Assembly (NCBI GenBank): GCA_947311535.1
Contig: CAMZLP010000155.1
Coordinates: 1 to 35,466 of the forward strand
Direction of reading: 5' to 3'
Origin: an uncultured Deinococcota bacterium
Lineage (GTDB): Bacteria > Deinococcota > Deinococci > Deinococcales > Trueperaceae
DNA: 35,466 bases
Shown: one piece after another, positions 117-34,075 of the stretch
How positions within the stretch are numbered: the stretch's first letter is position 1
Layout of the letters: each line of letters opens with the position of its first letter
Position numbers and translations under genes: made by a program
Notes under the pieces: generated by a model
Database searches by the model: none
Told to the model about the DNA's origin: nothing
The model's input: only the letters and a program-made list of their open reading frames with translations

Positions 117-749
117 TTATAACAAAAATGGATTATATTTCTTCTCGTGAGCAATAGTAGTACCTTCACCATGGCCAGAATAGACATTGGTTTCATCGGG
201 TAAAACAAATAGCCTCTCTTTTATACTTTTTAACAACTGCTGATGATCAGCAAAAGGCAAATCCGTTCTACCTATTCCCTCTTTAAACAAGGCATCACCA
301 GATAATAATAAATTTTCAGCTTTTATATAAAAAGCAATATGCCCTGGAGCATGCCCTGGAGTAAAAATACATTCAATTTCAGTATCGCCAAGTTTTAAGA
401 TCTGGCCATCTTTAATTTCTTTTGGTTTTGTAGTGGGTTGTTTTATAGTTATTTCCCAACGGGCTGCTGCCATTGCAGCATTGTCATATAAAACATTGTC
501 ACTTGGGTGCAATAGTACCGGGACTTTAAGAGCCTCAATAATATCTTCCACCGCACCAACATGATCAAAGTGAGCATGAGTTAAAAAGATAGACTCGAGC
601 CTATAGTTTTTTTCTTTTAACACGCCCAAAAGCAAATCAGCTTCATCGCCAGGGTCTATTAAAACGGCTTTTTTGGTTTTTTCATCTGCTAACAAATAGC
701 AATTTTCTTGTAAAGGGCCAACAGTAAATAAATAAACAGAAAGATTCAC
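117..749 (-). CDS. MBL-fold metallo-hydrolase, glyoxalase II-like
   Basis: This 210-residue protein is a compact metallo-beta-lactamase fold hydrolase of the GloB/YcbL type. The zinc ligands are all visible: THAHFDH at residues 57-63 (H58, H60, D62, H63), PGH at 131-133, GD at 151-152 and SGHG at 191-194. Its length fits the short YcbL-like branch that lacks the C-terminal helical domain of classical glyoxalase II. No signal peptide is seen, so it should be cytosolic. Hydrolysis of glutathione or other thiol esters is the usual role of relatives, but the substrate cannot be read from the sequence. A persulfide dioxygenase (ETHE1) role would suit the sulfur genes in the window, yet nothing specific supports it. 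It is the last gene on the minus strand before the end repeat, 18 bases after the glycosyltransferase stop. Confidence 0.88.
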   Translation of the reverse strand: MNLSVYLFTVGPLQENCYLLADEKTKKAVLIDPGDEADLLLGVLKEKNYRLESIFLTHAHFDHVGAVEDIIEALKVPVLLHPSDNVLYDNAAMAAARWEITIKQPTTKPKEIKDGQILKLGDTEIECIFTPGHAPGHIAFYIKAENLLLSGDALFKEGIGRTDLPFADHQQLLKSIKERLFVLPDETNVYSGHGEGTTIAHEKKYNPFLL

Positions 750-767
750 AGTGTTTATACTAGCCTA

Positions 768-1451
768 TTATTGCTTATTTGTTCTAATTGTAAACCACGT
801 TTGTAAAATATCTCGGTACATTCCCAATCGAATTTTAAAGCCCGCCCAAAAACCACGTTTTTCTTCTTTCATTACCTGTGAAACATCTTTTAAATCTATA
901 TTGGCTGTGCGCCAATTATCTTTTTTGGCTCCCTTAGTAATAGCTATTTCTATACCATATCGAGATTTGGAAAAATCAGGCAATGCCAATAGCTTTTCAC
1001 GCAATATTCCTCGTTGACCATTTAGCTGGGGGCTAATATTTTGGGCAGCAGTTGTTTGCCATCTTCCGCCACTAAAATTGCCTCTGGTCATATCAACTTC
1101 ATCATTTAAAACTGGCTTTGCTAGGTCAATAACATGCTGGCTTTTAAGACCTGTCAAATCAGCATCTATGAGTACAATGGCTTTTGTTTGCAGAGTTTTG
1201 GCAGCAAGCCAAACTGCTCCACCTTTGCCAACGTTTTCTATTATTTCTAAAACTGCTGCACCAGCAGCAAGTGATTTTTCTTTGGTTTTGTCAGTTGAGC
1301 CATCATCTACTACCAAAACCAAACCCAAATTAGCTTCTAGAGCAAGTTTTACAATACTAGCAACTGTTGCTTCTTCATTGTAAGCAGGAATTACAACAGC
1401 ACAATCCCCAGTTAAATCTAAATCTTTTGGAAAAAGATTAAAATTAGCCAC
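768..1451 (-). CDS. Family 2 glycosyltransferase
   Basis: This is a 227-residue GT-A fold glycosyltransferase. The nucleotide-sugar site is clear: VIPAYNEE at residues 20-27, VVDDGSTD at about 47-54, GKGGAV at 75-80 and the metal-binding DAD at 96-98. There are no membrane helices, unlike dolichol-phosphate mannosyltransferases with C-terminal anchors. The C-terminal part has amphipathic stretches that may bind the membrane. Its start overlaps the end of the RseP gene by 8 bases, which suggests translational coupling and one transcript. The donor and acceptor are unknown; a lipid carrier or cell-surface glycan is likely from the family. Confidence 0.87.
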   Translation of the reverse strand: MANFNLFPKDLDLTGDCAVVIPAYNEEATVASIVKLALEANLGLVLVVDDGSTDKTKEKSLAAGAAVLEIIENVGKGGAVWLAAKTLQTKAIVLIDADLTGLKSQHVIDLAKPVLNDEVDMTRGNFSGGRWQTTAAQNISPQLNGQRGILREKLLALPDFSKSRYGIEIAITKGAKKDNWRTANIDLKDVSQVMKEEKRGFWAGFKIRLGMYRDILQTWFTIRTNKQ

Positions 1452-2544
1452 TTAAAAACAAACCACCGAGTTCTTTAAAAGTAATTAACAACATCAATAC
1501 TATCACTGACATAAAGCCAATAAAATGGATGAATTCTTCTCGTCCTGGGGGTAGTGGTTTGCCACGCAAAGAAGTAATTGTAGCCAAAACCATACGTCCA
1601 CCATCTAAGCCTGGTATTGGTAATAAATTAAATACCCCTAAAGACAGATTGATAAATGCCGCAAGTGCCAAAACTGGAATAATACCAACCTTTCGGGCAC
1701 TATCTACCATTTTCACTATGCCTACAGGACCTGCAATATCTTCTGATTGTTTTGCAGACAATGCTGATGCAAAACCTTTTACAAAGCCTTTAACAACATC
1801 TGGCACTACCTTAAACGAAAATACTACGGTCTCAGCAATTGCCTGAAAAAAGTTAATCTTTGGCAAATCTTTAACAACTAATGGGGCTATTTGAACACCC
1901 AATAGGGGTCGTTCTTGACCTTCTTTTAGTTCTGGTGGCCACGGGCTGGCAATGTTTATAGTTTTTTCACCACGTTTAAAAGTAATTAATAATTTAGGGC
2001 TGGCATCACGGATTGATTGGCTAACTTGGCTAGCGTTAGGATCTTTTATGCCATTAATTTCCAAAAATATATCACCAGCTTCTATCCCTAGAGCTTCAGC
2101 TGTATAACCTTCCATAATGCCATCTACTATTGCACCGCTATTTTCAGCAACTAGGCCAGATGTTAAACTTCGATAGTTTGGCACTATTGTTATAACAGTT
2201 GACAATAAAATAATAAATAATAAGTAATTTGCTACAACCCCAGCAACTAAAATAAATAGCTTTTCCCAAAGTTTTTTTGTCGTAAAACCATCTTCATAAT
2301 ATTCGTAGTTTCCGTCTTCATCTGCTTTTGCGCCCATACTTGGGATATCAACATAACCACCAAGTGGCAAAAGGGAAATTCGCCATTCGGTATCTCGCCA
2401 TTGTTTTTTAAATATCACTGGGCCCATACCAATACTAAATGCTCTGACAGGTACACCTACAGATTTAGCGCTTAAGTAATGAGCTGCCTCATGAACCATA
2501 ACTGCTGTTGTAAGAATTAAAAGAAATATAATTGCTGTAATCAT
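1444..2544 (-). CDS. rseP: RseP-type site-2 membrane zinc protease (M50)
   Basis: The 366-residue protein is an intramembrane metalloprotease. The zinc motif HEAAH sits at residues 18-22 in the first membrane helix, a PDZ-like domain lies around residues 120-205 (including DIFLEINGIKD and a SIRDASP stretch), and the third-ligand motif PIPGLDGGRM is at about 309-318. A last membrane segment spans roughly 338-355. The single PDZ domain and the length fit Gram-positive and Deinococcota RseP proteins (E. coli has two PDZ domains and about 450 residues). It cleaves membrane-spanning anti-sigma factors or leftover signal peptides. The downstream glycosyltransferase overlaps its stop codon. Confidence 0.93.
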   Translation of the reverse strand: MITAIIFLLILTTAVMVHEAAHYLSAKSVGVPVRAFSIGMGPVIFKKQWRDTEWRISLLPLGGYVDIPSMGAKADEDGNYEYYEDGFTTKKLWEKLFILVAGVVANYLLFIILLSTVITIVPNYRSLTSGLVAENSGAIVDGIMEGYTAEALGIEAGDIFLEINGIKDPNASQVSQSIRDASPKLLITFKRGEKTINIASPWPPELKEGQERPLLGVQIAPLVVKDLPKINFFQAIAETVVFSFKVVPDVVKGFVKGFASALSAKQSEDIAGPVGIVKMVDSARKVGIIPVLALAAFINLSLGVFNLLPIPGLDGGRMVLATITSLRGKPLPPGREEFIHFIGFMSVIVLMLLITFKELGGLFLSG

Positions 2545-2691
2545 TTGCTTAAGTATGGCAGATTACTGTGAGAACTGGTTAAATTAGGATACTGGGGGAA
2601 TATTTAGTGCATTTATTAAAAACACAATCTCTTGCATCAAGTAGCCCGTCGGTCTATGGCTAGCCTTTTAAATCTTAAAGAGGGGCTTTTA

Positions 2692-3840
2692 TTAAGCTAA
2701 AGCGTGTGGGTCAAATAGCCTTGAATATTCGGCACTTGCAAATCTATCAGTCATACCTGCTATATAGTCTGTTACTGTTCTTTCTAGGCCTTTTTTCTTG
2801 GCCTTTTCTTGCATTTGGGTTGGTAGCATATTTGGTGATGACAGATAGGCATTGTAAATTCGCTCTAAGATATAGTCGGCTTTTTTGGTCATGCGAATAA
2901 GGCGATAGTGAAAATAAAAGTTCTGATATAAAAAACTCTTTAATTCTTTTAATTCTTGTTTCATTTTTGGCGAAGGGCTTGCTAATTTAGACTTTGCACT
3001 GCGTACATCTTCTAAGGTTTTAATTTGATTTTGCTCGAGCCTATCCGCCGTAAATCTAATAGCATCAGTTATCTCCAAACCTAAAATCTCACGGATTAAA
3101 GCGTAGCGGTCTTGATCACTAAAATCAATTGGCGATACTCCAAAGCCTTTCATTATTTTGCCAATAATGGGTACTTCATAAATCTGTTTGGGCGTAAGTG
3201 TTCCGCTACGCAAGCCATCATCAAGGTCATGAGCGTTGTAAGCAAATTCATCGGCAATATTAACTACTTGAGCTTCTAAGCTGGGTTGTTTATCTGGTTC
3301 CCATTCAATATTGGGTACATCATAGTCGGTTTCATGCTTCATAATTCCTTCTAGAGTTTCCCAACTCAGGTTTAAGCCTTGGAACTTCGGGTATCTGTGC
3401 TCGAGCTGAGTCACAACCCGCAGTGATTGTTTATTATGCTCAAATCCTCCAGCAGCCTTAGCTAACCTATTTAATGTTTTCTCGCCAGCATGGCCAAATG
3501 GCGGATGCCCTAAATCATGAGCTAGGGCAATTGTTTCAGCTAAATCTTCATTTAAACCCAAAGCCCTAGAAATGCTTTTAGCAACCTGAGCCACTTCTAT
3601 GGTGTGGGTTAATCTAGTGCGATAGTAATCACCGGCAAAATTCACAAAAACTTGCGTTTTATATTCTAAACGCCGAAAAGCGCTTGTATGTATTACCCTT
3701 GCTCTATCTTTTTGAAAAGCAGTTCTGTATTCACTTTCACTCTCAGAATAAACCCGACCCCGAGATTCTCCAGCTAGGCTGGCATACGGGGCTAGGCTAG
3801 CCTTTTCATTGTCTTCTAGAGTTTTTCTTGTGTAAATCAT
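2692..3840 (-). CDS. dgt: dGTP triphosphohydrolase, HD superfamily
   Basis: This 382-residue HD-domain enzyme removes triphosphate from dGTP or other dNTPs and helps balance nucleotide pools. Visible motifs: FRRLEYKTQVF at 55-65, RLTHTIEVAQ at 76-85 with H79, the HD pair at 108-109 within LAHDLGHPPFGHAGE, and the later NIADEFAYNAHDLDDGL with its metal-binding Asp. The length fits the short dGTPase-like group found in Thermus, where the enzyme is a hexamer acting on several dNTPs. The start codon lies inside a 15-bp inverted repeat (3837-3878), and no Shine-Dalgarno sequence is seen, so translation may be controlled by RNA structure. Confidence 0.94.
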   Translation of the reverse strand: MIYTRKTLEDNEKASLAPYASLAGESRGRVYSESESEYRTAFQKDRARVIHTSAFRRLEYKTQVFVNFAGDYYRTRLTHTIEVAQVAKSISRALGLNEDLAETIALAHDLGHPPFGHAGEKTLNRLAKAAGGFEHNKQSLRVVTQLEHRYPKFQGLNLSWETLEGIMKHETDYDVPNIEWEPDKQPSLEAQVVNIADEFAYNAHDLDDGLRSGTLTPKQIYEVPIIGKIMKGFGVSPIDFSDQDRYALIREILGLEITDAIRFTADRLEQNQIKTLEDVRSAKSKLASPSPKMKQELKELKSFLYQNFYFHYRLIRMTKKADYILERIYNAYLSSPNMLPTQMQEKAKKKGLERTVTDYIAGMTDRFASAEYSRLFDPHALA

Positions 3841-4429: not shown

Positions 4430-5131
4430 TTAAGTAGTTGCAGCGTAAACAATCTCTTCATAAGGCTGCATAACTATCCAACCATCACCTTCAAATTTCA
4501 TTTGGAATGATTCACCGCTACCACGACCTACAAATGTCCTAAATGACATATCCATTTTAAGCTCAGGCATTAGGCTACCAGACCAAGCAACAGTTGCATT
4601 AGGATCAGTAAAGACTGGTTGACCTGGTTTTACTAAAAGTGTAAGTGGGTCATAATGAGTTGTAATTGCTAGTAAGCCAGAGCCAGACATTTTTACACTA
4701 AACAAGCCACCAGCCATCATGCTCGAAACTCTCTTCATCATAGTTATATCCCACTTTAAGTTACCGTCTTCAAAGGCCAATAAATCATTACCATTTACAT
4801 AGATTGTTTCATTTTGTAAATTAAGTATTTGTACCTTTTTACCAGAATCAGCAAAATATACTCTACCCTCACCATCAGCATGCATTAAGCTTGTACCTTC
4901 ACCGGTTACCGCTTTTTTGAGTAATTTACCCAAGCCTTGCTTACGCATACTTTCTCGTTCAAATTTCACATTGCCAGTATAAGCAATCATAGAACCAGCC
5001 TTAGCCCAAACCCGACCATTTAGATTGACCTCGAGCATGTAGGCGCTTTCCAATTCAAAATGCCCTCTTGCGTCTTCATCTTGACGAGTTTCTTGCACAA
5101 ATTCATTAATTGTGTATCTTGCTTCTTGCAT
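4430..5131 (-). CDS. AIM24 family protein
   Basis: The 233-residue protein matches the AIM24 / TIGR00266-type family, which has a beta-rich fold related to the tryptophan RNA-binding attenuator protein. Signs of this are the repeated short beta strands with the motifs VWAKAGSMIAYTGNVKFE, LMHADGEGRVYFADSG, VNGNDLLAFEDGNLKWDI and the late SGSLMPELKMDMSFRTFVGRGSGESFQMKFEG. It has no signal peptide. The molecular function is unknown in bacteria; the yeast relative is a mitochondrial inner-membrane protein. It has its own Shine-Dalgarno sequence (AGGTTA-like) and sits between an aquaporin-family gene and a small ABM-like gene, with no obvious operon partner. Confidence 0.82.
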   Translation of the reverse strand: MQEARYTINEFVQETRQDEDARGHFELESAYMLEVNLNGRVWAKAGSMIAYTGNVKFERESMRKQGLGKLLKKAVTGEGTSLMHADGEGRVYFADSGKKVQILNLQNETIYVNGNDLLAFEDGNLKWDITMMKRVSSMMAGGLFSVKMSGSGLLAITTHYDPLTLLVKPGQPVFTDPNATVAWSGSLMPELKMDMSFRTFVGRGSGESFQMKFEGDGWIVMQPYEEIVYAATT

Positions 5132-5192: not shown

Positions 5193-5864
5193 CTAGCTTT
5201 CTTCAAAAATATTCTTGTAAACTTGAGCAGCTATTAGCCCACCAGTTACTGGAGCCAACCAATAAAGCCAAATCTGCGAAGCAGCAGCCCCACCCGCAAA
5301 AAGAGCAGGCCCAAGCTGTCTGGCTGGGTTCATGGCTGCACCCGTGATTGGACCACCCATCAAAATGGCAATAGTGACCATAAAACCAATGAATAATGCA
5401 GCCACTGAATAACCATTTTTATCTATGGCAGTTGCATAAATAACAAATACCAAGAAGAAACTGAGCACAATTTCAATGATAATTCCACTCAATATCCCAA
5501 CCCCATCGGCCAAATGTGGAGCCCCCATGCCAACCGATTTTAGTTGATCAGGAATAACAACTAAGAGCAATGCAGTTGCAGCAATAGCAGCTAAGATCTG
5601 GCTAATTATATAGCCAATAGAATCACTTAAGCCTATTTTGCCAACTGAGAATAGGGCAATAGTTACTGCAGGATTAAAATGTGCCCCGCTTATAACCCCT
5701 AAGCCAGCTATCATAACAGCAATAGTTAAACCATGCGCCAAAGCCACCCCCAATAGGCTCGAGCCTGGCCCAAGCGCTATTGCATTAGATGCAATTGCCC
5801 CAATACCTATGAAACATAGCGCAAAAGTTCCAATAAACTCTGCTAACAAGGCTTTTGTATTCAT
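5193..5864 (-). CDS. Aquaporin / MIP-family channel
   Basis: This 223-residue membrane protein has six helices and two NPA boxes: HFNPAVTIA (NPA at 64-66) and GAAMNPARQLGP (NPA at 179-181, followed by the selectivity-filter Arg182). The helix-five position that is His in water-specific AqpZ appears to be aliphatic here (AILMGGPITGAAMNPAR), so a wider or less water-specific pore is possible. The residues around the second NPA resemble the common bacterial GPITGAAMNPAR group. Length is normal. It lies in the inner membrane. No glycerol kinase or other metabolic partner is nearby, so the solute is undecided. Confidence 0.92.
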   Translation of the reverse strand: MNTKALLAEFIGTFALCFIGIGAIASNAIALGPGSSLLGVALAHGLTIAVMIAGLGVISGAHFNPAVTIALFSVGKIGLSDSIGYIISQILAAIAATALLLVVIPDQLKSVGMGAPHLADGVGILSGIIIEIVLSFFLVFVIYATAIDKNGYSVAALFIGFMVTIAILMGGPITGAAMNPARQLGPALFAGGAAASQIWLYWLAPVTGGLIAAQVYKNIFEES

Positions 5865-6398: not shown

Positions 6399-7942
6399 GG
6401 GCCAGAAATTGCTTCTAAAAACCAAATAGGTAAATTATTTTTTTGTCTATTTAAAAAACTTGGAAAATCAGCATCTAATATATATGTAACCGCAAAATCA
6501 TCTCTGCTTCTTATGCTGCGACCATAAGCTTGAACTATTGTTAAGCAAGTACGCCAATCATACCAAGAGCTATCTAAATTTTTACGCCTATAGACTTGCG
6601 GGTCACCTAAAAATGGATAAGGAATTTTGGAAATAACCTGCCAACGGCTTAGGTCGCCTGCCAAGTCTATGCCCTCAGTCATACTAGGGCTTAACAAAAC
6701 TGTGGCTGTTCTTGAGCGGATATGTTTATCCAAAGCGGCGTCTCGGGCATCACCAGAGAAATGAGTTACAATTCTTTTTTTGTGCCGAGCGGGCAAGTTT
6801 TGGGCAATATAGCTAGTGTTTTTATAAGAATGTGCATGAATCAAACCTTTATCATCTGGATGAGCATCCATTATTTCCGAAATTTCAGCAACTAACTTTG
6901 GTAAATCTCGTTCTATATAATTACGGGTCAATCTAGCAACTGGGCGCAAATATATTGGTCTATTTTCCGCAGGAAAGTCAGACTCAACTGAAATTATTTC
7001 CGCCTCTTCAGGTCTTATGCCTAAACTACGCAAAAATGTTGGCGCATTTAAGATTGTTGCCGAGAGCATCAATATATTTTCGGCAAAATCAAATAAGAAG
7101 TTACGAGCAAAACTGTCAACCATTACCGGTTTATAGCGAATCCAATTGCCTTCTTTGTTTCTACCCTTTTCAACAACCCATTCTGTAAAGTTTTCATCGC
7201 GGCTATGCACAAGCATTTCTAAGCGAGTAAATTGATTATCTAGATAGTTTTTATTTTGCATTTGAGCTAGGGCAGCATCAGGCCCTAAATTATCTTTTTT
7301 GAGTAAAAAATCAATCTCTTTACTACGGCCACGCAATAGTGGCATTATATCTTCTGCAAAGTCAAAATAACCCATTTGCTCAGTACTATTTGGCACTCTT
7401 TCCGGAATACCGACTCGAGCCAAAGCCGAGTCAGAAATTGTTATCTGGATAAAGTTCATTAATTGTGCTTCTGAGTTATGGGCTTCATCTAAAACCAAAA
7501 GCTCACGAGGCTGAAAACCACCCGAGTAATTTAATTCTGCCAGATAATAAGCATAATTCATAATGGCGTTATTAGCGGCGATTGCTGTGTCTTTGGCTAC
7601 AAAATAAGGGCAGTCATCACATTCTGGAAACTTGCGTCCAGCAATGCAAGGAGCAGCCGCAGCATGGGTAGGAGCTACCAAGCAAGGGTAATTACTCCGC
7701 CCTTTCATTAAAGCCAAATCAGGAAAGTCTTTGATATACTGCTCTTGTAATATTTTTTGAGCAGTTAGTATATAGGCCGAGTTAGCTTCTCTGGCCATAG
7801 TTACTGCAATTGCAGATTTACCAGCACCTGTTGGTGCTTCTATAACTACAAAGCGCTTGCCATTTTTAAATGCTTGCTGAGCTTTTTTAATGGCTTCTTT
7901 TTGACCTTTTCGGTATGTTTTATATGGAAATGCAGAAGACAC
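6395..7942 (-). CDS. DinG/XPD-family DNA helicase
   Basis: This 515-residue protein is a superfamily 2 helicase of the DinG/XPD type. Walker A is APTGAGKS at 36-43 and the DEAH box is at 152-155. Four cysteines at 87, 99, 108 and 111 lie between them, as expected for the 4Fe-4S cluster of this group. The C-terminal half carries motif V/VI sequences (LSPSMTEGIDLAGD and QAYGRSIRSRDD, with the arginine finger). Relatives unwind DNA 5' to 3' and act on R-loops, forks and G-quadruplexes. At 515 residues it is shorter than E. coli DinG (716), closer to compact bacterial versions without an exonuclease domain. It is transcribed alone, with both neighbours on the plus strand. Confidence 0.9.
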   Translation of the reverse strand: MSSAFPYKTYRKGQKEAIKKAQQAFKNGKRFVVIEAPTGAGKSAIAVTMAREANSAYILTAQKILQEQYIKDFPDLALMKGRSNYPCLVAPTHAAAAPCIAGRKFPECDDCPYFVAKDTAIAANNAIMNYAYYLAELNYSGGFQPRELLVLDEAHNSEAQLMNFIQITISDSALARVGIPERVPNSTEQMGYFDFAEDIMPLLRGRSKEIDFLLKKDNLGPDAALAQMQNKNYLDNQFTRLEMLVHSRDENFTEWVVEKGRNKEGNWIRYKPVMVDSFARNFLFDFAENILMLSATILNAPTFLRSLGIRPEEAEIISVESDFPAENRPIYLRPVARLTRNYIERDLPKLVAEISEIMDAHPDDKGLIHAHSYKNTSYIAQNLPARHKKRIVTHFSGDARDAALDKHIRSRTATVLLSPSMTEGIDLAGDLSRWQVISKIPYPFLGDPQVYRRKNLDSSWYDWRTCLTIVQAYGRSIRSRDDFAVTYILDADFPSFLNRQKNNLPIWFLEAISGP

Positions 7943-8144: not shown

Positions 8145-9156
8145 ATGAAAAGATTTATCATATTAGTTGCTGTCTTATTAGTGCTGCTTGCAAGCTGCAA
8201 GCCCAATACCGAGCCAAGCATTGCAAAATGTGTTAATTAACGTTAATTTTGCAAGTGAGAACTTAAAATCAGAAGTTGCTAAAGCCCTTGGTGTAAGTGC
8301 TGAAGTAAGTTGTGAGAAAATATTAGAATTAAAAAAGCTAAAGATAATCTTTAAAGATATAGGAGCTTTGGATGGGCTCGAGCATGCCCAAAACTTAATA
8401 AGTATCGATATTGGTATCGGAAAGGTATCCGATATAAGCCCTTTATCAAAGCTTAAAAAGCTTCGGGAGTTGCGCCTTTTTAGCAATTCAATCTCTGACT
8501 TAAGCCCGCTAAAAAACCTAAGCGAGCTTCAAGTTTTGATTCTTCAAGATAATCCACTAACAGATATTTCAGCAATTGCTAATTTAGGTAAATTAAATTC
8601 CTTAAATATTGGTGCAAATAAAGATGGTAAAAGCCAAGTTAGTGATATTAGTGCTCTAGAGAATCTTAGCAATTTAAGAACTTTAATTATCAACAATAAC
8701 CCTTTGGACGCAAACGATTTAAAGGTACTAAATAAACTAACTAAGCTGACTAGCCTTGACCTCGATAAATTAGGAATTAGCGATATTTCTTCAGTAAAAG
8801 GTTTAAGCCAATTGACTAGACTAATCCTAAGCAATAATAAGATTTCCGATATTACTGCCTTAAAAGATTTGAGTCAGCTTAAAGAACTTAGATTGAAAGA
8901 TAATCAGATTAAAAATATTGATAGCCTAAAAACTCTGGTAAATCTAAAAGATCTTGATTTGGATTCTAATCTAATAACAGATATCTCAGTATTTGATGAA
9001 AACCTTGGCTTGCATGACAGCGGTGACAAAATTAGAATTAGTTTTAACTGCTTAGATACTTCTAAAGGCTCTAAAGCTTATAAAACTATCCAAAAGCTAA
9101 TTGCCTTGGGTGTAAAAATTAGCTATGATTCAGCAAAAAATTCTGACTGTCCGTAG
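8145..9156 (+). CDS. Leucine-rich-repeat lipoprotein, apparent frameshift
   Basis: The gene reads in two frames. ATG 8145, behind a GGAGGG ribosome binding site, starts a lipoprotein signal (MKRFIILVAVLLVLLASC, lipobox LASC) that hits TAA at 8238-8240. The following +1 frame holds an internalin-like repeat protein to 9156: a start-cap sequence (NFASENLKSEVAKALG), about eight 22-residue leucine-rich repeats of the SDISPLxxLxxLxxLxLxxNxI kind, and a C-terminal cap with two Cys. Removing one T near 8237-8238 joins the frames smoothly. So this is either a sequencing error or a recent null allele. If intact, the product would be a surface-anchored LRR lipoprotein for protein or ligand binding. The repeat frame could alternatively start at TTG 8188, but that would lack the signal. 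Confidence 0.78.
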
Positions 9157-9378: not shown

Positions 9379-9392
9379 TAGGCTCGAGCCTA
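9379..9392. repeat. Intergenic copy of the iterated palindrome
   Basis: TAGGCTCGAGCCTA is a perfect 14-bp palindrome, the longest version of the iterated GCTCGAGC element, here outside any gene and about 100 bases upstream of the first SQR gene. Confidence 0.85.
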
Positions 9393-12405: not shown

Positions 12406-12975
12406 ATGGATATCATCAGCGTTTTAAAACAACCTTGGCCTTGGTGGATAGTAGGCCCCCTTATTGGTCTTTTTGTACCAATACTGCTTATTCTTGATAA
12501 CCGGCAATTTGGTGTTTCTGCTAATTTACGACACTGCTGTGCAATTATCCCCAACAAAGTTAGTTTTTTCAACTACGACTGGCGCAAGGCTGGTACTTGG
12601 AACCTCTTTTTTGCAGCAGGAATCATGCTTGGTGGCTTTATAGCCCACTATTTGTTAGCAGATCCAGAACCAATAAAAGTAGCAGAATCTACTGCTCGAG
12701 ACTTATCTGCATTAGGCGTAGTACCAGATGGTAAATTAATCCCAGAGAGCTTATTTAGTTGGGCTAGTTTGTTTACCTTGCGAGGCTTTATAATGATAGT
12801 TGGCGGTGGGTTTTTGGTTGGTTTTGGTGCACGCTATGCAGGTGGTTGTACCTCTGGCCATGCTATTTCTGGCATCTCGGACTTACAAATCCCTTCAATT
12901 GTTGCTACAACTTTCTTCTTTGTCGGTGGTCTAATCACCACCTTTTTAATCTTCCCGATTTTACTTAGGTTATAG
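12406..12975 (+). CDS. YeeE/YedE-family sulfur transporter, first half
   Basis: This 189-residue membrane protein is an N-terminal half of the Sulf_transp (TsuA-like) family. Helices span about 14-30, 66-83, 126-142 and 165-187. The family signature GGCTSGH with C148 is present (YAGGCTSGHAISG). In full-length TsuA, conserved cysteines in the two halves relay thiosulfate through the membrane. Here the protein is split into two genes, an arrangement common near SQR and sulfur-oxidation genes. It starts 8 bases after the SQR stop and ends 8 bases before the second half. An internal loop at about 85-120 is longer than usual. The cargo could be thiosulfate or another sulfane-sulfur compound; direction is unknown. 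Confidence 0.88.
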   Translation: MDIISVLKQPWPWWIVGPLIGLFVPILLILDNRQFGVSANLRHCCAIIPNKVSFFNYDWRKAGTWNLFFAAGIMLGGFIAHYLLADPEPIKVAESTARDLSALGVVPDGKLIPESLFSWASLFTLRGFIMIVGGGFLVGFGARYAGGCTSGHAISGISDLQIPSIVATTFFFVGGLITTFLIFPILLRL

Positions 12976-19765: not shown

Positions 19766-20245
19766 TCATTCTTTATCCAAATCCAAGATTAAATTATTAA
19801 GTTGAAAACTGTGCCTAATGGGGTGCATTACAGCATGCTCGAGCATAGCCTCGATAGGTAATTCCATGCCCCAATTTGTAGTATATATTTCAGCATATCG
19901 GCTAGTCTCCACATCTACAAGAGGCAAGCGCCAGCACTCTAAAAGATGTTCGATATAATCGGCTGCTTCTAGTTCTATATTAGCAATATCTGGTTCTATT
20001 CTAATTTTCGGGTCATCAAGCTCGAGCCTATCGCAAATCCAAAGCATATAACCCCTAGCAGCTCGTAAATTATGAATTATTAAGGTCTCGAGCGATTTAT
20101 AATCTCTATCATCAGTTTTTGGCAAGGCAACATTTCTAGCCTTGGCAAGCTTCCAGGTATCTAAAAAGATTCGTAAGTGCTGCTCGTGTAATAAAACTAA
20201 AGCCCTTGCCCCAGCATATTTATAATTTCTCAATTGATTATTCAT
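19766..20245 (-). CDS. DinB-like four-helix protein
   Basis: This 159-residue protein has the helix pattern of the DinB/YfiT superfamily: helices around 5-35, 48-72, 90-115 and 130-155. Relatives use three histidines to bind a metal and act as thiol-dependent transferases or have unknown roles. Here the likely ligands are an N-terminal His (H18 or H23), H54 and the late pair in AVMHPIRHSFQL, but the classic spacing is only partly kept. The family is expanded in Deinococcus. It lies 7 bases after the TauE/SafE gene, so the two are likely cotranscribed. I am moderately sure of the family and not of any function. Confidence 0.65.
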   Translation of the reverse strand: MNNQLRNYKYAGARALVLLHEQHLRIFLDTWKLAKARNVALPKTDDRDYKSLETLIIHNLRAARGYMLWICDRLELDDPKIRIEPDIANIELEAADYIEHLLECWRLPLVDVETSRYAEIYTTNWGMELPIEAMLEHAVMHPIRHSFQLNNLILDLDKE

Positions 20246-21115: not shown

Positions 21116-21478
21116 TTAGCTATTAAAAATAGAATCTCTTTTGGACTCTTGTGAATAATATTTTCTATGCTGCAATTTCATTCGGCGTTCCGGGCTTCTT
21201 AAAGGTTGTTTGATAATCTTTTGGGTAATAACCAAAAGCAACAAGTAATCTCCACCGCGGCGACCAGTTTGCACAAATTCTATATCTACATCTTGTAGAT
21301 GCTCGAGCATCTCAAAAGGAACTTTTAAAACAGCAGACCTCTCACCCCAAATACTAAGAAACATTATATCTGTTTCACGCTTACTATCAGCCGAGTACAT
21401 ATTAACTCGATGTTTTTGAACTAGGTGATTAGCCACTTTTACTAATTGCTTTACTAAATCCTCTTTTGAAGCTGTCAT
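21116..21478 (-). CDS. Small protein of unknown function
   Basis: I do not recognise this 120-residue protein. It begins with a helix (EDLVKQLVKVANHLVQKH), then beta strands (DIMFLSIWGERSAVLKVP, VDIEFVQTGRRGGDYLLLLVITQ), and ends in a basic, disordered-looking tail (RSPERRMKLQHRKYYSQESK). There is no signal peptide or membrane helix. The basic tail would suit nucleic-acid or ribosome binding. It lies between the ProRS terminator and the TauE/SafE gene, alone on the minus strand, with no clear ribosome binding site. It is real by codon pattern and its uninterrupted frame, but no role can be given. Confidence 0.65.
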   Translation of the reverse strand: MTASKEDLVKQLVKVANHLVQKHRVNMYSADSKRETDIMFLSIWGERSAVLKVPFEMLEHLQDVDIEFVQTGRRGGDYLLLLVITQKIIKQPLRSPERRMKLQHRKYYSQESKRDSIFNS

Positions 21479-21591: not shown

Positions 21592-23034
<1,443 letters not shown>

Positions 23035-23181: not shown

Positions 23182-24324
23182 GTGGAATTAATAAACTTAG
23201 TTTTTAGAAATTTAAAATCTCGCCCAGTCAGAAGCTTTTTGACTTGGCTAGGTATATTAGTAGCAACAACTTCAATGATTCTTTTTTTGTCTTTTGGTGA
23301 GGGTTTGCGTAAGGCATTGGATAGTGAAATGCAAAATTTTGGCCCAGAAATTAGAATTGTAGCAGCGGGTACTAGTGCTTTTTCTGCACCACTACCAGAG
23401 CTCAGCCCCGACATGCTACCTCAGCTAGAAGCGCTTAAAGACGAAATTGGCATTGAAACAATTTCACCACTCGTGGTGATGGTAAAAGGTGGTGGCTTTA
23501 GCCCAACAAGTGGTTTTTTATTTTATGGCTTAAACCAAGAAACTAGTCCAAAACTATTTTTACCTGATGCAAAGCCAATTCAAGGACGTTTGCAACCTCA
23601 TCCTGATGGTGCAGTAGTCGGCTTTAAAAAGGCAGAGCAAAGCAACTTAAAAATCGGCAAAACCCTTCGATTAGGCCGAGACCAAGAGGTAGAAATTGTT
23701 GGAATTTTAGAAGAAACGGGCACCTTGTCAGATTCGGCAATTTTTGTTCCTTTAACTGTTTTACAAGATGCAATGGGTACAAAAAATTACGGTACTTTTT
23801 TATTGAATTTAAACAATAATGTTGATATTGAGAAAGCTAGCCAAAAATTAGAAGCTGCTTTTGAAGGCATAGAGGCCCAGAGCATGTCTGAGGCAATGGA
23901 ATTTGCCAAAAAGAGCTTACGAATTGGCGACTTTATCCGTTTTGGGATTAGTGCTGTTGCTTTAATTGTAGGAGCATTACTAATTGCCAATACTATTATG
24001 ATGAGTGTGTTTGAGCGGACTCGAGAATTTGGCCTTATGCGTGCAATCGGTGCAAAACAGCAATTTATCTTTGGCTTAGTATTAACCGAAGCTTTGTTTT
24101 TAGCTCTAACAGGTGGCCTAGCAGGTGTGCTTTTAGGCTATATTGGTACAATCATAATTAATATCATTAGTGTAAATTATGTTGGTATCGCACTCTCTGC
24201 TCTAACTTTTCGATTGGCGTTTTTTGCTCTTTCTGTCGCTCTTGTTTTGGGGCTATTATCTGGTCTTTTACCAGCTCGTAATGCCAGCAAAATGCCAGTG
24301 ATAAAAGCATTGGGGCGTGCATAA
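23182..24324 (+). CDS. ABC transporter permease, MacB/FtsX type
   Basis: This gene is open from 23002, but the upstream part overlaps proS and reads as nonsense. The family's start (VELINLVFRNLKSRPVRSFLTWLGI) fits GTG 23182, giving 380 residues. The layout is one N-terminal helix, a large periplasmic MacB_PCD domain (about 45-240), then three helices with the FtsX motif (MMSVFERTREFGLMRAIGA). It belongs to MacB/LolC-like mechanotransmission exporters, not pumps with a lumen, and may move lipoproteins, lipids or peptides. The next gene, its ATPase, starts inside its stop codon (TAATG). No Shine-Dalgarno sequence was seen before the GTG, so the exact start is uncertain. Confidence 0.88.
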   Translation: MELINLVFRNLKSRPVRSFLTWLGILVATTSMILFLSFGEGLRKALDSEMQNFGPEIRIVAAGTSAFSAPLPELSPDMLPQLEALKDEIGIETISPLVVMVKGGGFSPTSGFLFYGLNQETSPKLFLPDAKPIQGRLQPHPDGAVVGFKKAEQSNLKIGKTLRLGRDQEVEIVGILEETGTLSDSAIFVPLTVLQDAMGTKNYGTFLLNLNNNVDIEKASQKLEAAFEGIEAQSMSEAMEFAKKSLRIGDFIRFGISAVALIVGALLIANTIMMSVFERTREFGLMRAIGAKQQFIFGLVLTEALFLALTGGLAGVLLGYIGTIIINIISVNYVGIALSALTFRLAFFALSVALVLGLLSGLLPARNASKMPVIKALGRA

Positions 24325-25139: not shown

Positions 25140-25144
25140 AAACT

Positions 25145-27615: not shown

Positions 27616-28182
27616 ATGTGCAGATACGGAGTGTCGACATACAAACCACACTACGCTTGTTTTAAATGTCGCAAAACATTTAAAAGGCGGCTAATAATAG
27701 ATATAGCTCGAGACGAAGCATATTCTAAAGATTGGCAAGATAGCCCAGCAAAATGCCCAGAATGCGGTAACCTTATGGCAAATATGGGCTTAGACTTTGA
27801 GTCACCAAAGAAAAACGATAAAAAGGCATGGCAACATGTCGAAAACCTTTATGAAACTGGCATTAGCTTTCATTCTTGCGGTTGCACCGGCCCTGGTTAT
27901 ATTCCTAAAGATAAAGAAGCTCTTTTAGTTCTTTTAAAAAAGCTGCATAAAGATTATATTGAGCAACGCAGATTTTGGTCTAATCGGGTTGAACCTAAAA
28001 CCGCCAGTGAAGAAGCCAAAGATAGAGAAATGAATGCCAAATTTTTGTATAGTTTGCCAAGAAAGTTTATATATGGAACTAAGCGTAATAAAAAGAGGGA
28101 TATTGAAAGGGCCGTTGTATATTGGGCTGATAAAACAAAGCAAATTGAGCAATATATTAATGGACTATCAGCAAAGAACTAA
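27616..28182 (+). CDS. Zinc-ribbon protein of unknown function
   Basis: The 188-residue protein starts 27 bases after the nuclease-like gene with an excellent AAGGAGGAGG ribosome binding site. Cysteine pairs C15/C18 (YACFKCRK) and C47/C50 (CPECGNLM) form a zinc ribbon. A third C88-G-C90 lies in SFHSCGCTGPGY. The C-terminal half is helical and basic (KKLHKDYIEQRRFW, PRKFIYGTKRNKKRDIERAVVYW). I have seen such proteins annotated only as hypothetical in diverse bacteria. The spacing suggests it is cotranscribed with the upstream gene, so a shared role in DNA binding is possible but unproven. Confidence 0.75.
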   Translation: MCRYGVSTYKPHYACFKCRKTFKRRLIIDIARDEAYSKDWQDSPAKCPECGNLMANMGLDFESPKKNDKKAWQHVENLYETGISFHSCGCTGPGYIPKDKEALLVLLKKLHKDYIEQRRFWSNRVEPKTASEEAKDREMNAKFLYSLPRKFIYGTKRNKKRDIERAVVYWADKTKQIEQYINGLSAKN

Positions 28183-29310: not shown

Positions 29311-30786
29311 TCAAATCTCATATTCCTTTATTAATGAGACCATTTTCTTAACTCCAGAAATTATCAAATGCTCATCAACTGCACCATAACCAAGTACCAA
29401 ACCCATTTTGTGGCTATCGTCCAGACTGTAATTAGACAAAGGAAAGGCTTCTATGCCGTTTTCTTTTAGTTTTTTGGCAACTACTACATCATTTAAATTT
29501 GCAGGTAAGTACAAAACAAGATGCATACCGGCTGGGCTCGAGCCTAGCTCAAATTCAGCTAATAAGTCAGCTAACAGGCTAATCAATAGCTCTCTGCGTT
29601 GGGCATAAATAACTCGCATTTTTCTAATATGCCTAGCAAAATGACCCTCGGCAATAAAATCAGCTAAAACCATTTGGTTTATCCACGGTGAACCACGGTC
29701 AAAATGCAAGCGTGCTTTTACAAATGCATCTGTCATGGCTTGGGGTACAACTACATAGCCAAGCCTAAGAGCTGGGAATAAAACCTTGCTAAAGCTGCCT
29801 ATATATACCACCGAATTAGCTTGGTCTAAACCTTGCAATGCTGCTAGGGGTTGGCCCTTAAACCTAAACTCACTGTCATAGTCGTCTTCTAAAATCCAAG
29901 AATTATTGGCTCGAGCCCATTCTAATAATTCCAAGCGTCTAGCTAGGCTCATAATTACACCCATTGGGTATTGATGAGACGGTGAAACATAAGCAAACTT
30001 GGCTTTTGGGGCTTTGCTTATAGCAGTTTTTACACTTAAGCCCTCGCTGTCAATTGCTATCGGAACCATTTTTAACATTGCAGATTTAAAGGCAGCTTGG
30101 GCACCGGTATAGCCGGGGTTTTCTATCCATACTTGGTCATTAGCATCAGCTAATAAATAGCTAGCAATTTGCAAGGCTTGCTGGCTACCATTGACAATTA
30201 TCACTTGTTCTGCCGAGCATTTGACTCCGCGGGCAAGTTTTAAATAATTTGATATTTCTTGCCGTAAAGGCAAATAACCTGCCCCTGAGCCATAAAACAG
30301 GTTTTTGGCTTCTGGTTTTCGCCAGTGCTTATTTAGTAGTCTGCGCCAAATTTTAAATGGGAACTCATTAGTCTCTGGTATGCCTGGCCTAAAAGCTGGA
30401 GTTGAGCTATTATCATAAACTCGGCTAGAAATAAAAGCATCTGCCCTATTTGATAATTTAATGGCGGTATTTAAGCTAACTTGCTTTTGTTGAAAAGTTT
30501 TTACTTTTAAATCTGGTAAATGCTGGCTTACAAATGTGCCTTTACCAACATAGCTTTCTAAATAGCCCTCGGCAATCAACTGCTCTATGGATAGTAATAC
30601 CGTGGAGCGTGACAGCTTTAGTTCGTTAGCAAAGGCTCGAGTCGAAGGTAATCTAAAACCACTACTAAAACGTCCGCAAAGTATGCCCTCTTTTAAATAA
30701 TTATAAAGCTGTTTGTATAAAGGAAGCTCTAAGTCTTTATTTAAAGAAATACCAGCAATTGTCAAAAAGGATTCTTGTTTAGCCAT
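29311..30786 (-). CDS. MocR/PdxR-type GntR regulator
   Basis: The 491-residue protein fuses an N-terminal GntR winged helix (about 10-85, LYKQLYNYLKEGILCGRFSSGFRLPSTRAFANELKLSRSTVLLSIEQLIAEGYLE in two pieces) to a fold-type I aminotransferase domain. PLP-site marks are NPGYTGA, YVSPSHQYPMGV, DDYDSEF, and GSFSKVLFPALRLGY with its Schiff-base Lys. MocR proteins sense PLP or amino compounds and control pdx, gab or other genes. No PLP-synthesis gene is next to it; its divergent neighbour region leads to metG and a possible tiny gene. It likely also controls its own promoter in 30787-31150. Confidence 0.92.
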   Translation of the reverse strand: MAKQESFLTIAGISLNKDLELPLYKQLYNYLKEGILCGRFSSGFRLPSTRAFANELKLSRSTVLLSIEQLIAEGYLESYVGKGTFVSQHLPDLKVKTFQQKQVSLNTAIKLSNRADAFISSRVYDNSSTPAFRPGIPETNEFPFKIWRRLLNKHWRKPEAKNLFYGSGAGYLPLRQEISNYLKLARGVKCSAEQVIIVNGSQQALQIASYLLADANDQVWIENPGYTGAQAAFKSAMLKMVPIAIDSEGLSVKTAISKAPKAKFAYVSPSHQYPMGVIMSLARRLELLEWARANNSWILEDDYDSEFRFKGQPLAALQGLDQANSVVYIGSFSKVLFPALRLGYVVVPQAMTDAFVKARLHFDRGSPWINQMVLADFIAEGHFARHIRKMRVIYAQRRELLISLLADLLAEFELGSSPAGMHLVLYLPANLNDVVVAKKLKENGIEAFPLSNYSLDDSHKMGLVLGYGAVDEHLIISGVKKMVSLIKEYEI

Positions 30787-30908: not shown

Positions 30909-30918
30909 GGCTCGAGCC
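30909..30918. repeat. Intergenic GGCTCGAGCC copy
   Basis: A 10-bp perfect palindrome upstream of the MocR-type gene, outside coding sequence, identical to the core of the iterated element. Confidence 0.85.
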
Positions 30919-31155: not shown

Positions 31156-31184
31156 TTGGCAATTAATATAAAATTTGCTATACT
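31156..31184 (+). promoter_or_regulatory. Sigma-70 promoter of metG
   Basis: TTGGCA (31156-31161), a 17-base spacer and TATACT (31179-31184) make one of the best promoters in the window. Transcription should begin near 31190-31192, giving a leader of about 120 bases before metG. Confidence 0.75.
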
Positions 31185-31191
31185 CTTTGAC

Positions 31192-31255: not shown

Positions 31256-31294
31256 CGCTTTTTTAAACTAATTAAGAAGCGTCCTTATTTTTTT
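31252..31294 (+). terminator. Attenuator-type terminator before metG
   Basis: A 12-bp stem (31252-31263 with 31274-31285, including two G-U pairs) with a 10-base loop is followed by a run of T bases ending at 31294. It lies between the promoter and the metG ribosome binding site, so it can only act on metG itself, which means it must be conditional. Confidence 0.75.
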
Positions 31295-31310
31295 GTTTGA
31301 AAGGTTAAAA

Positions 31311-33218
31311 ATGACTAAAGGAAAAGAAACATATTATGCCACAACCCCGATTTTTTATGCGAATGCTGAGCCGCATATCGGCCACGCTTACACAACTACA
31401 CTTGTTGATGTTGCCACACGCTTCCATAGATTAAAAGGTGACAACACTTATTTTTTGACAGGAACTGACGAACACGGCGAAAAAATTCAAAAGGCAGCTG
31501 AAGCCAATAATATGAGCCCCCAAGAATACACCGATATGATTGCAGGAAAGTTTAAATCAACTTGGGATTCATTAGACATTCGCTATGATGATTTTGTACG
31601 AACAACCCAAGAACGTCATAAAAAAGTGGTGCGAGAGATTTTGCAAAAGGTTTATGACAATGGCGATATCATTTTTGGTGAATATGGTGGTTTATATTGT
31701 CTTGGTTGTGAACGCTATTACACAGATAAAGAATTAAAAGACGGCAAATGCCCACAGCATGATACTAAGCCAGAATATCGTAGCGAAGAAAACTACTTTT
31801 TCCGCATGGAAAAATATCGCCCTTGGTTACAAGATCATATTAAACAAAACCCCGACTTTATAAGACCAGAAAGATATGCTAATGAAGCCTTAGGGATTTT
31901 GCGTGAACCAATTGGGGACCTGTCAATTAGCCGTCCACGTAACCGAGTACCTTGGGGCATACCACTACCGTGGGACGAGAATCATGTAACCTATGTTTGG
32001 TTTGATGCTTTAATCAATTATTACTCTGCCCTTGACAGTAAAAATTTGATAGATGAGTACTGGCCACATGTCAATCATTTTATCGCCAAAGATATTTTAA
32101 AACCTCATGGGATTTTTTGGCCAACTATGCTAAAATCGGCAGGTATTGATATTTACCCACATTTAAATGTACATGGTTATTGGCTAATAGATCAAGGTAA
32201 AATGAGTAAGTCTAAGGGCAATGTTATAAACCCATTAGATTTAAAAGATAAATATGGCGTTGACGCTTTTAGATATTATTTATTAAAGGATATGCACTTT
32301 GGCTCTGATGCTTCCTTTTCGGAAGAGGGTTTAGCTGAGCGTATTAACAGTGATTTAGCTAATGATTTTGGTAATCTTCTAAATAGGACCTTAGGCATGC
32401 TCGGTAAATATACCGAGGGCAAAGTACCTGGCATAACCAAAATTGAAGAGATTGATCATGATTTAATATCTTCTTTTACAAAATTACCAGAAATATTTAC
32501 AGAGTACTTTGATAATTTAGAATTTGATAAAGCAATTTCGGCAGTGCTCGAGGCTATCCGAAAAGCTAATAAATATATAGCTGACACCGAACCTTGGGTT
32601 TTGGCTAAAGATGAAAACAAAAAAGCTAGATTAGAAACAGTTTTAACTAACTGTGTCGAGGCTTTACGATGTGCTTCGATTTTGCTCGAGCCTGTAATGC
32701 CAAATAAAACAAGGGAGCTAAGAAAGCAACTTGGCATTAAAAATATCCCCTTTAATTTAGCAAGTGCCGCTGAGTGGGATTTGGTACCTGTTAATACCCA
32801 AACTCAAAAAGGCGAACCACTATTTCCTAGAATAGATTTAGAAGCCCTTAAAGAAGAGACTGTAGTAAAAGAGGTTGTGCTCGAGCATAAGCCCGAGGTC
32901 ACAATTGACGACTTTGCCAAATTAGAATTTAGAGTAGCTGAAATTTTAAGCGCTGAAGAGCATCCAAAAGCAGATAAACTATTGGTATTAAACGTGCAAC
33001 TAGGCCCAGAAAAACGCACCATAGTCTCTGGCATAAAAGAATGGTACAAGGCCAAAGAGTTAGCTGGTAAAAAGGTGATAATTGTTGCTAATTTAAAACC
33101 AGTCAAGCTGCGTGGAATACTATCGGAAGGTATGATTATGGCTGCCGAAGATGAAGATGGTAATTTGAGTATTTCTAGCTTGGATAGAGATATTATTTCG
33201 GGTAGTGAAGTTCGTTAG
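31311..33218 (+). CDS. metG: Methionyl-tRNA synthetase
   Basis: This class I enzyme charges tRNA-Met. I chose ATG 31311 (635 residues) with a GAAAGG ribosome binding site 7 bases upstream; TTG 31293 would lie in the terminator's T-run. HIGH is at 22-25 and KMSKS at 297-301. The zinc knuckle has the C130-x-x-C133...C147-x-x-H150 pattern of the Thermus enzyme, and the stretch NYFFRMEKYRPW, GDLSISRPRNRVPWGIPLPW follows Thermus closely. After the anticodon domain, residues from about 520 form a C-terminal tRNA-binding EMAP/Trbp111 domain (DFAKLEFRVAEILSAEEHP), which dimerises in other species. The gene is under its own attenuator-like leader. Its neighbours face away or toward it and are unrelated. 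Confidence 0.97.
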   Translation: MTKGKETYYATTPIFYANAEPHIGHAYTTTLVDVATRFHRLKGDNTYFLTGTDEHGEKIQKAAEANNMSPQEYTDMIAGKFKSTWDSLDIRYDDFVRTTQERHKKVVREILQKVYDNGDIIFGEYGGLYCLGCERYYTDKELKDGKCPQHDTKPEYRSEENYFFRMEKYRPWLQDHIKQNPDFIRPERYANEALGILREPIGDLSISRPRNRVPWGIPLPWDENHVTYVWFDALINYYSALDSKNLIDEYWPHVNHFIAKDILKPHGIFWPTMLKSAGIDIYPHLNVHGYWLIDQGKMSKSKGNVINPLDLKDKYGVDAFRYYLLKDMHFGSDASFSEEGLAERINSDLANDFGNLLNRTLGMLGKYTEGKVPGITKIEEIDHDLISSFTKLPEIFTEYFDNLEFDKAISAVLEAIRKANKYIADTEPWVLAKDENKKARLETVLTNCVEALRCASILLEPVMPNKTRELRKQLGIKNIPFNLASAAEWDLVPVNTQTQKGEPLFPRIDLEALKEETVVKEVVLEHKPEVTIDDFAKLEFRVAEILSAEEHPKADKLLVLNVQLGPEKRTIVSGIKEWYKAKELAGKKVIIVANLKPVKLRGILSEGMIMAAEDEDGNLSISSLDRDIISGSEVR

Positions 33219-33235
33219 ATTAAACTTTAAATGAG

Positions 33236-33269
33236 ATGGGCAGGTTTAATATCTGCTCATTTTTGTTTT
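33236..33269. terminator. Terminator between convergent metG and PqiA-like genes
   Basis: ATGGGCAG pairs with CTGCTCAT (8 bp, one G-U) over a 9-base loop, followed by TTTTGTTTT on the plus strand. It ends the metG transcript and overlaps the end of the PqiA-like gene. Confidence 0.6.
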
Positions 33270-34075
33270 AGGTAAAATCTATCAAAAATTTGACTGGCTA
33301 ACATAGACAATAAAACATAGCTAGCAAAGTAATATAAACCAATACCGGCTCGAGCCTCTGTTAGTCCATCTTGCTCTAAGGCAAATAGGGTAAGAAATAC
33401 TGCAACTACAAATACATCTAACATAGACCACTTGCCAATACCGTGAATAAACTTGGCTATTTTATTAACTCTTGACTTATTTTTATCTACAATAATAAAA
33501 AATGACAACGCCAGCTTAATAAGTGGTACAACTATACTAAATAAAAATAACATAGCAGCGACAAAGAAAGTTTTGCTTTCAAATAATTTCCTAATTGTAC
33601 CTAGTATCCCCTTAGAATCGTATTTAAAAACCACTTGCCCTAAAACCGCTAAGTCTTGGTAAGCTACAAACGATAAAACAGGTGTCAACAAACCAACTAC
33701 CAAAGCAATAAGCGATAAAACAATCAAGTGTTGAAAGACATATTGCCGAAAATAGATTAAACTAATAGCAATTAGTACTAGGCTCATAGCCAGCAAAATA
33801 AAACTATTTGACCTTACTTGTCCTCTATAAATATTCATTTGGATAACAAGTTCTTCAATTGATGCTATCTTTTCTTCACCGCCATCATAAATGCCAAAGC
33901 TTATAGTATCTAATAAAACCTTCCATTCGGTATCTATTTTTTCTTCTATAGTATTATATTTATTTACCTGTATAGAATATTTGGCAGCTGTATTTGCAGC
34001 ATCAATAATAAAAAAAGCCAATATAACAGTTATGCCGTAGAAAATAACAGTTATAATCCCTAGTACAATCTTCAT
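33257..34075 (-). CDS. PqiA-like (paraquat-inducible protein A) membrane protein
   Basis: The 272-residue form starts at the ATG at 34075, which has AGGA 6 bases upstream; a longer frame to 34114 would add 13 residues. Helices: about 5-25, 86-103, 111-130, 176-200 and 233-260. The phrase GKWSMLDVFVVAVFL near 222-236 is the strong PqiA mark. PqiA proteins work with MCE-domain proteins (PqiB) in moving lipids between membranes, but no MCE gene is in the window. An extended loop at about 32-80 lies outside the membrane. It is divergent from the kinase gene, with only 63 bases between starts, so their promoters overlap. Confidence 0.82.
   Translation of the reverse strand: MKIVLGIITVIFYGITVILAFFIIDAANTAAKYSIQVNKYNTIEEKIDTEWKVLLDTISFGIYDGGEEKIASIEELVIQMNIYRGQVRSNSFILLAMSLVLIAISLIYFRQYVFQHLIVLSLIALVVGLLTPVLSFVAYQDLAVLGQVVFKYDSKGILGTIRKLFESKTFFVAAMLFLFSIVVPLIKLALSFFIIVDKNKSRVNKIAKFIHGIGKWSMLDVFVVAVFLTLFALEQDGLTEARAGIGLYYFASYVLLSMLASQIFDRFYLKQK

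Follow-up and report, generated by a model that had tools for sequence, protein, structure and literature searches.

How does the hexamer CTCGAG come to recur so densely, and so often within the same longer palindrome, in the DNA of an uncultured member of the Deinococcota? The stretch analysed here (the window) comprises 35,466 nt of contig CAMZLP010000155.1, from a metagenome-assembled genome (MAG) of the family Trueperaceae (G000; 2.72 Mb, completeness 92.4%). An initial annotation of the window had likened its CTCGAG sites to HIP1 (GCGATCGC), the highly iterated palindrome (HIP) of cyanobacteria that is tied to a solitary methyltransferase, and had suggested a methylation, repair, segregation or uptake signal. 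The element proved to be iterated throughout the genome and, as the CTCGAG core, in much of the order to which it belongs. A CTCGAG-based HIP across the Deinococcota, tied to a solitary CTCGAG-specific adenine methyltransferase, is regarded as a fairly probable explanation.

Iteration and anatomy of CTCGAG in the window and its genome

The window contains 32 CTCGAG sites, as originally counted, whereas 2.8 are expected from an order-2 Markov model. Twenty of them carry the octamer GCTCGAGC, also in agreement with the first count (0.18 expected from shuffles; the maximum in any of 100 shuffles was 2), and eight carry the decamer GGCTCGAGCC (Table 1). The sites fall in all three codon frames (LE, GSS and AR contexts) of genes on both strands, and two of the decamers are intergenic; the site list thus bears out the variety of frames, strands and positions described in the initial annotation.

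The iteration is a property of the whole genome. G000 contains 495 copies of GGCTCGAGCC and 1592 copies of GCTCGAGC (~590 octamers per Mb), versus 0 and 41 copies of the reversed words; the sites are neither near the Markov expectation in number nor confined to this contig or to one gene family. No hexamer is more over-represented within 308 kb of G000 than CTCGAG (10-fold), and the same holds among octamers for GCTCGAGC (observed-to-expected ratio, O/E, of 58 by the order-2 model) and among decamers for GGCTCGAGCC (419-fold). By codon frame, the sites in these 308 kb divide into 129, 78 and 39, and 12 are non-coding. A codon-preserving shuffle, in which synonymous codons were permuted within genes so that proteins and codon usage remained unchanged, was applied to 247 kb of coding DNA. 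The octamer was observed 165 times and expected 6.0 times (28-fold), and the decamer 57 times for 0.8 expected; protein sequence does not explain the sites, in line with the initial annotation. Site density is about 2-3 times greater in genes (0.94/kb) than outside them (0.41/kb). The spacing is near random (coefficient of variation 0.88 vs 0.96 +- 0.05), and its regularity is only slight.

One-off variants of the octamer are concentrated at its first and last bases, with 16-33 copies for outer-base changes versus 3-5 expected; inner changes are near or below expectation. Outside the CTCGAG core the preferences include G(-1) in 84%, G(-2) in 52%, A(-3) in 51%, T(-4) in 58% and G(-7) in 46% of sites, and also T(-10). 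These preferences are graded and mirror-symmetric, and reach ~20 bp (G..TAGGCTCGAGCCTA..C). Because the majority of sites lie inside genes, the core codons were kept fixed in the control for the flanks, and the remaining codons were shuffled synonymously. The excess persisted at each preferred position (z 5-20), and the preferred form in G000 is therefore a palindrome of ~20 bp, roughly GnnTAGGCTCGAGCCTAnnC, written as a 20-mer GGATAGGCTCGAGCCTATCC.

The element of G000 is accordingly a short GC-rich palindrome strongly over-represented genome-wide, present in all frames, on both strands and between genes, and varying mainly at the outermost bases of the octamer. The HIP1-like nature proposed at first, and its occurrence in the Deinococcota, are supported. 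HIP1 proper is not the iterated word, since its inner hexamer CGATCG is depleted in G000 (2 vs 11 expected in 308 kb). Other short words are also scarce in the window and in loci L001-L020 of this genome (GATC at 0.32, CCGG and GGCC at ~0.57 of expectation), which suggests past or present restriction there.

Table 1. The 32 CTCGAG sites of the window, by the longest form of the element that each carries
Form	Position	Context
GGCTCGAGCC	5756..5765	ORF 5193-5864(-), frame GSSL
GGCTCGAGCC	9381..9390	intergenic
GGCTCGAGCC	18238..18247	purH-like ORF 18114-19622(+), frame LEP
GGCTCGAGCC	18813..18822	purH-like ORF 18114-19622(+), frame GSSL
GGCTCGAGCC	29535..29544	GntR/aminotransferase ORF 29311-30786(-), frame GSS
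GGCTCGAGCC	29908..29917	GntR/aminotransferase ORF 29311-30786(-), frame ARA
GGCTCGAGCC	30909..30918	intergenic
GGCTCGAGCC	33347..33356	ORF 33257-34114(-), frame ARA
GCTCGAGC	3033..3040	HD-domain ORF 2692-3840(-)
GCTCGAGC	3399..3406	HD-domain ORF 2692-3840(-)
GCTCGAGC	8376..8383	ORF 8188-9156(+)
GCTCGAGC	14356..14363	ORF 13815-15638(-)
GCTCGAGC	17071..17078	PpiD/SurA-like ORF 16012-18036(+)
GCTCGAGC	19837..19844	ORF 19766-20245(-)
GCTCGAGC	20020..20027	ORF 19766-20245(-)
GCTCGAGC	21301..21308	ORF 21116-21478(-)
GCTCGAGC	21867..21874	proS ORF 21592-23031(-)
GCTCGAGC	21981..21988	proS ORF 21592-23031(-)
GCTCGAGC	32684..32691	metG ORF 31293-33218(+)
GCTCGAGC	32879..32886	metG ORF 31293-33218(+)
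CTCGAG core only	594..599	
CTCGAG core only	5030..5035	
CTCGAG core only	7414..7419	
CTCGAG core only	12695..12700	
CTCGAG core only	16583..16588	
CTCGAG core only	17057..17062	
CTCGAG core only	20087..20092	
CTCGAG core only	22476..22481	
CTCGAG core only	24020..24025	
CTCGAG core only	27707..27712	
CTCGAG core only	30636..30641	
CTCGAG core only	32547..32552	
ORF, open reading frame.

Spread of the core and lineage-specific flanks

The phylum was searched as 111 genomes, all within one order; by size and number, no Deinococcus-type genera were apparent among them. The family of the window's genome is denoted f1, and its members match Trueperaceae/Truepera contigs in the GTDB collection. Each of the five families of the order includes lineages in which CTCGAG is iterated, and some genera are without it; in the majority of lineages sampled, no other hexamer or palindrome is as over-represented. 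The octamer GCTCGAGC is more frequent than its reversed control in some members of f1 and in genera g27-g29 of family f5. In genus g19 of f2 the two counts are 3176 vs 1 and 2981 vs 3; in all f3 genomes they are 1814-3827 vs 0-3; and in genus g25 of f4 the excess is about 2-4 fold. The flanks differ by lineage: GGCTCGAGCC is the form in G000, S-CTCGAG-S that in Meiothermus, and CCTCGAGG that in one f2 genome. In f3, CTCGAG reaches 6.0-6.3 sites per kb, or one per 160 bp, and the flanks are nearly flat, which indicates that the unit there is the hexamer itself. The unit in common is CTCGAG, to which flanking bases are added in a lineage-specific way. The decamer, taken at first for the element as such, is thus the local form of a core found across the order, and the element is not tied to AT-rich genomes.

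Counts of the reversed word do not make a clean control, because GAGCTC is itself avoided in f3, in G003 and in the Myxococcota genome G122 described below; CTC-GAG dicodons also inflate the signal in GC-rich genomes. Under the codon-preserving control, the excess of GCTCGAGC was real in G099 (24-fold), G031 (5.7-fold), G083 (3.9-fold) and G011 (3.3-fold) as well as in G000. For CCTCGAGG, the values were 5.5-fold in G001, 4.0-fold in G031 and 2.7-fold in G052, although CTCGAG overall was at 1.0-fold in G052. The element is absent from G092, G105, G110 and G004 by this control. An earlier view that the element is present everywhere, drawn from CCTCGAGG and its reversed word, was dropped: in G092, a GC-rich Trueperaceae genome without either of the methyltransferases described below, CCTCGAGG is at 1.1-fold after codon shuffling, and its excess is mostly CTC-GAG dicodon usage.

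Several other words of these relatives are unusual. In the Thermus-sized genus g30 (G045-G071), GCTCGAGC is avoided (2-33 vs 14-194) and CCTCGAGG is common; most of these genomes have a methyltransferase ORF of TaqI size. In f3 (L221-L229; G005, G007 and G008), other 6-bp palindromes are extremely avoided, at 0.27-0.37 of expectation overall, and dozens are at zero; in G008, for example, GCGCGC is at 0/131 and CAGCTG at 0/45. The word AGGATTTGAA occurs ~50 times in 80 kb of G001 (L103-L106), possibly as a clustered regularly interspaced short palindromic repeat (CRISPR) array.

Solitary methyltransferases and their association with the iteration

The survey of methyltransferases (METHYLTRANSFERASES) covered four families (PF01555, PF00145, PF07669 and PF02384) over the 111 genomes and revealed two solitary gamma-class adenine-type enzymes, named X and Y. 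Neither PF01555, which is absent in G000, G096, G097 and G099, nor PF00145, present in just 29 of the 111 genomes, is a common factor.

X is an intact N6 methyltransferase of ~555 aa, of the NPPF gamma class (PF02384, PF07669 and PF22837); full-length copies occur in nine genomes of f1 and in 14 that are Meiothermus-like. It adjoins dnaG, assigned by zinc-finger and primase sequence, at the Trueperaceae loci L139, L163 and L165, and lies near it at L146. No endonuclease-like neighbour of X was found at any Deinococcota locus examined. Relatives of X in other phyla mostly have a gene for ~250 aa directly after or overlapping X (L141:11578-12336, L140:2646-3344 and 12 further loci outside the Deinococcota). 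From its sequence, this neighbour looks like an endonuclease ('KRVDVSYSDDQNGLLLAVSIK'); it has no match in Pfam, NCBIfam or PDB, and is possibly a restriction endonuclease of a family not yet described. The genomes with X and this neighbour show no clear avoidance of CTCGAG. For the strongly iterated G099 (2625 octamers; reported completeness 100%), X is the only match to the four families searched. The co-occurrence of X with the iteration, its complementarity with Y and the Myxococcota case, all given below, suggest that X methylates CTCGAG.

Y (~535-595 aa) is a full-length homologue of M.PaeR7I, with 46-69% identity over ~535-565 aa in most carriers and 39% in the truncated copy of G073. 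The M.PaeR7I reference comes from a plasmid record with the endonuclease gene alongside. PaeR7I recognises CTCGAG, and Y is by homology a predicted CTCGAG-type methyltransferase. In G031 (3,097,457 bp), Y is flanked by genes for an amidase and an exchanger, and no endonuclease adjoins it. In G108 (L128), which also carries X, a homologue of the PaeR7I endonuclease beside Y matches in two frames and therefore looks frameshifted. Y thus resembles the PaeR7I/XhoI-type restriction-modification systems in its full-length homology, up to 69% identity; it differs from them in having no adjacent endonuclease apart from this apparently broken one, and CTCGAG is enriched in the present genomes, not avoided.

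Within the Trueperaceae, iteration is seen in all ten carriers of X or Y, in three of them (G082, G098 and G108) only weakly by the reversed control, versus 2 of the 29 non-carriers (Fisher p=1e-7). The two iterated non-carriers are G000 and G100, the latter with a diverged X-like protein. The 18 genomes of the Meiothermus-like genus g29 are all iterated; 14 have X, 4 have Y, and none has both or neither (p=3e-4), which is the pattern that one CTCGAG enzyme replacing another would give. A Myxococcota MAG with X (Dive96_bin1.27, G122) has 18,912 CTCGAG versus 162 GAGCTC in 7.0 Mb, and no ~250-aa neighbour in the 570 bp of contig remaining beside X. None of 19 other X-bearing genomes outside the phylum is comparable, the largest ratio being 5.2. 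In 43 kb of G122 (L160 and L238-L240), O/E is 0.00 for TTAA and 0.15 for CTAG.

The link of the iteration to X and Y is by association only, and a number of observations weigh against it. With genera as the unit, over the order as a whole, the association weakens (10/19 vs 0/12, p=0.004), and neither genomes nor genera are independent. The families f2 and f3, f4 (g25) and genus g27 are iterated without a close X or Y, and the methyltransferases that they do have are of other kinds. X occurs with neither the neighbour gene nor a CTCGAG excess in an Elusimicrobia MAG and, in divergent form, in two Rhizobiales, so X alone is insufficient. The ~20-bp palindrome of G000 is longer than the site of a 6-bp methyltransferase. 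A search of G000, at its 92.4% completeness, yielded neither X nor Y; its dnaG, on contig C160, is followed by unrelated genes, and therefore X is not at that place. That no CTCGAG methyltransferase was found in it is the main weakness for G000; the parallel with the solitary methyltransferase of HIP1 is supported in relatives, through enzymes of CTCGAG type.

Four candidates in G000 were considered, and none is convincing as a CTCGAG enzyme. Two are large genes of bifunctional type: that of C152 (DUF7814-Eco57I-TaqI_C), which looks bifunctional, and the MmeI-like one of C40, which is interrupted by an IS200-like transposase domain. The C169 gene is a contig-edge piece in a helicase-associated system and apparently broken, and the fourth, at the end of contig C87, is the C-terminal part of a C5 enzyme. 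The C40 ORF (L013:194-2884, minus strand) encodes 897 aa, and its Y1_Tnp domain (residues 591-671) is in-frame within the catalytic part. Given the completeness of the assembly, the cognate gene may have escaped assembly, come from a different family or been lost recently; the first two are the presumed explanations. G073, of the same family, 67% complete and with the same decamer form, holds a piece of Y.

Possible explanations, known systems and significance

In the proposed explanation, CTCGAG would accumulate where a solitary, endonuclease-less CTCGAG adenine methyltransferase is kept as a housekeeping gene. The sites would be methylated and, after replication, transiently hemimethylated; DNA-maintenance machinery would read these states, which probably serve replication-coupled repair as a mark of strand or of self. 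One site per ~0.15-1.5 kb would benefit the genome, and a second reader or a repair bias would fix the lineage-specific flanking bases. Selection for methylated CTCGAG, or a repair bias towards it, is favoured because the iteration follows solitary methyltransferases, is indifferent to frame and has a density like that of HIP1. The sites are probably methylated in vivo; a role in repair is possible and is put forward tentatively. The 20-bp form in G000 hints at an additional reader. A wider version, still more doubtful, would make CTCGAG a mark of maintenance or of self throughout the phylum, read by a protein of its own and methylated by interchangeable solitary enzymes (X, Y and others); a reader that recognises a ~20-bp palindrome in the genus of G000 would explain the lineage-specific flanks, and a separate origin in the Myxococcota would have followed when X was kept without the endonuclease.

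Alternatively, CTCGAG, perhaps methylated, might mark kin DNA for natural transformation and spread by preferred uptake and recombination. Natural competence is known for the phylum, and Campylobacter offers a precedent for methylation as an uptake mark. The near-random scatter of the sites over coding and non-coding DNA would suit such a signal; like the DNA uptake sequences of Neisseriaceae and Pasteurellaceae, CTCGAG is a short word over-represented genome-wide, and its lineage-variable flanks also resemble uptake signals. However, it is strictly palindromic, unlike the signals of Neisseria and Haemophilus, the density in f3 is far greater than uptake should require, and the co-variation with methyltransferases calls for an extra assumption. 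An uptake signal is considered unlikely.

The sites might also be a functionless by-product of biased mismatch repair, in which methyl-dependent repair turns near-sites into sites. Some one-off neighbours of CTCGAG are indeed depleted in G000 (TTCGAG 24/60, CTAGAG 80/148; in total 0.89 vs 0.99 for the control word), but no such depletion is found in f3 and other lineages (1.2-1.5). Moreover, the ratchet of Elhai requires a methylated C preceded by G (PMC4390886), whereas X and Y are adenine-type. This explanation is considered rather improbable.

A chromosome-organising or segregation protein, binding as a dimer to a ~20-bp palindrome centred on CTCGAG, would account for the symmetric flank preferences of G000 to G(-7) and T(-10), which exceed the codon-matched control. 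The flanks are nevertheless nearly flat in f3 and weak elsewhere, the density in G000 is greater in genes than between them, and there is no candidate protein. A binding site of this kind is considered improbable. Codon or dipeptide usage (CTC-GAG), which accounts for much of the CCTCGAGG excess in G092, is hardly credible as a general cause and is rejected for G000 by the use of all frames and the excess that survives codon shuffling.

Among known systems, HIP1 is the closest parallel. HIP1 and the alternate HIPs of cyanobacteria occur at 300-2700 per Mb with O/E of 55-228 (Elhai 2015, PMC4390886), values derived from a simpler expectation than the ~58 of G000. The CTCGAG element is likewise a GC-rich palindrome at hundreds of sites per Mb, with palindromic extensions, outer bases that switch between lineages and absence in some lineages; its one-off deviations also fall at the outer bases (PMC4390886). 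In many relatives of G000 it goes, by homology, with orphan methyltransferases whose predicted site is the inner hexamer, as is the case for HIP1. The differences are the CTCGAG core, the other phylum, and the N6-adenine gamma-class enzymes, versus CGATCG and GATC enzymes for HIP1; the density in f2/f3, which reaches 6-7 sites per kb, and the ~20 bp extension in G000 also set the element apart. An orphan CTCGAG methyltransferase has been reported from Nocardia, where the motif is clustered near dnaA (Blow 2016, PMC4752239). It shares with the present enzymes its solitary state and CTCGAG recognition, the comparison being by recognition sequence; the iteration described here is genome-wide, whereas the Nocardia sites form clusters.

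The account of Elhai (2015) concerns cyanobacteria only and mentions neither these taxa nor CTCGAG (PMC4390886). No report of CTCGAG iteration in the Deinococcota, including Thermus or Meiothermus, was found in literature that was covered in part; the iteration is therefore likely, though not proven, to be new to the literature. The HIP phenomenon of cyanobacteria has a counterpart in another major lineage. What HIP1 does is a long-standing question that was tied to a single phylum; a second HIP with a different core, adenine- versus cytosine-type enzymes and natural losses allows direct comparison. The two interchangeable methyltransferases in cultivable Meiothermus make the purpose of HIPs and the role of methylation testable. 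If the link is true, a solitary methyltransferase can accompany a genome composition reshaped to one site per 160 bp.

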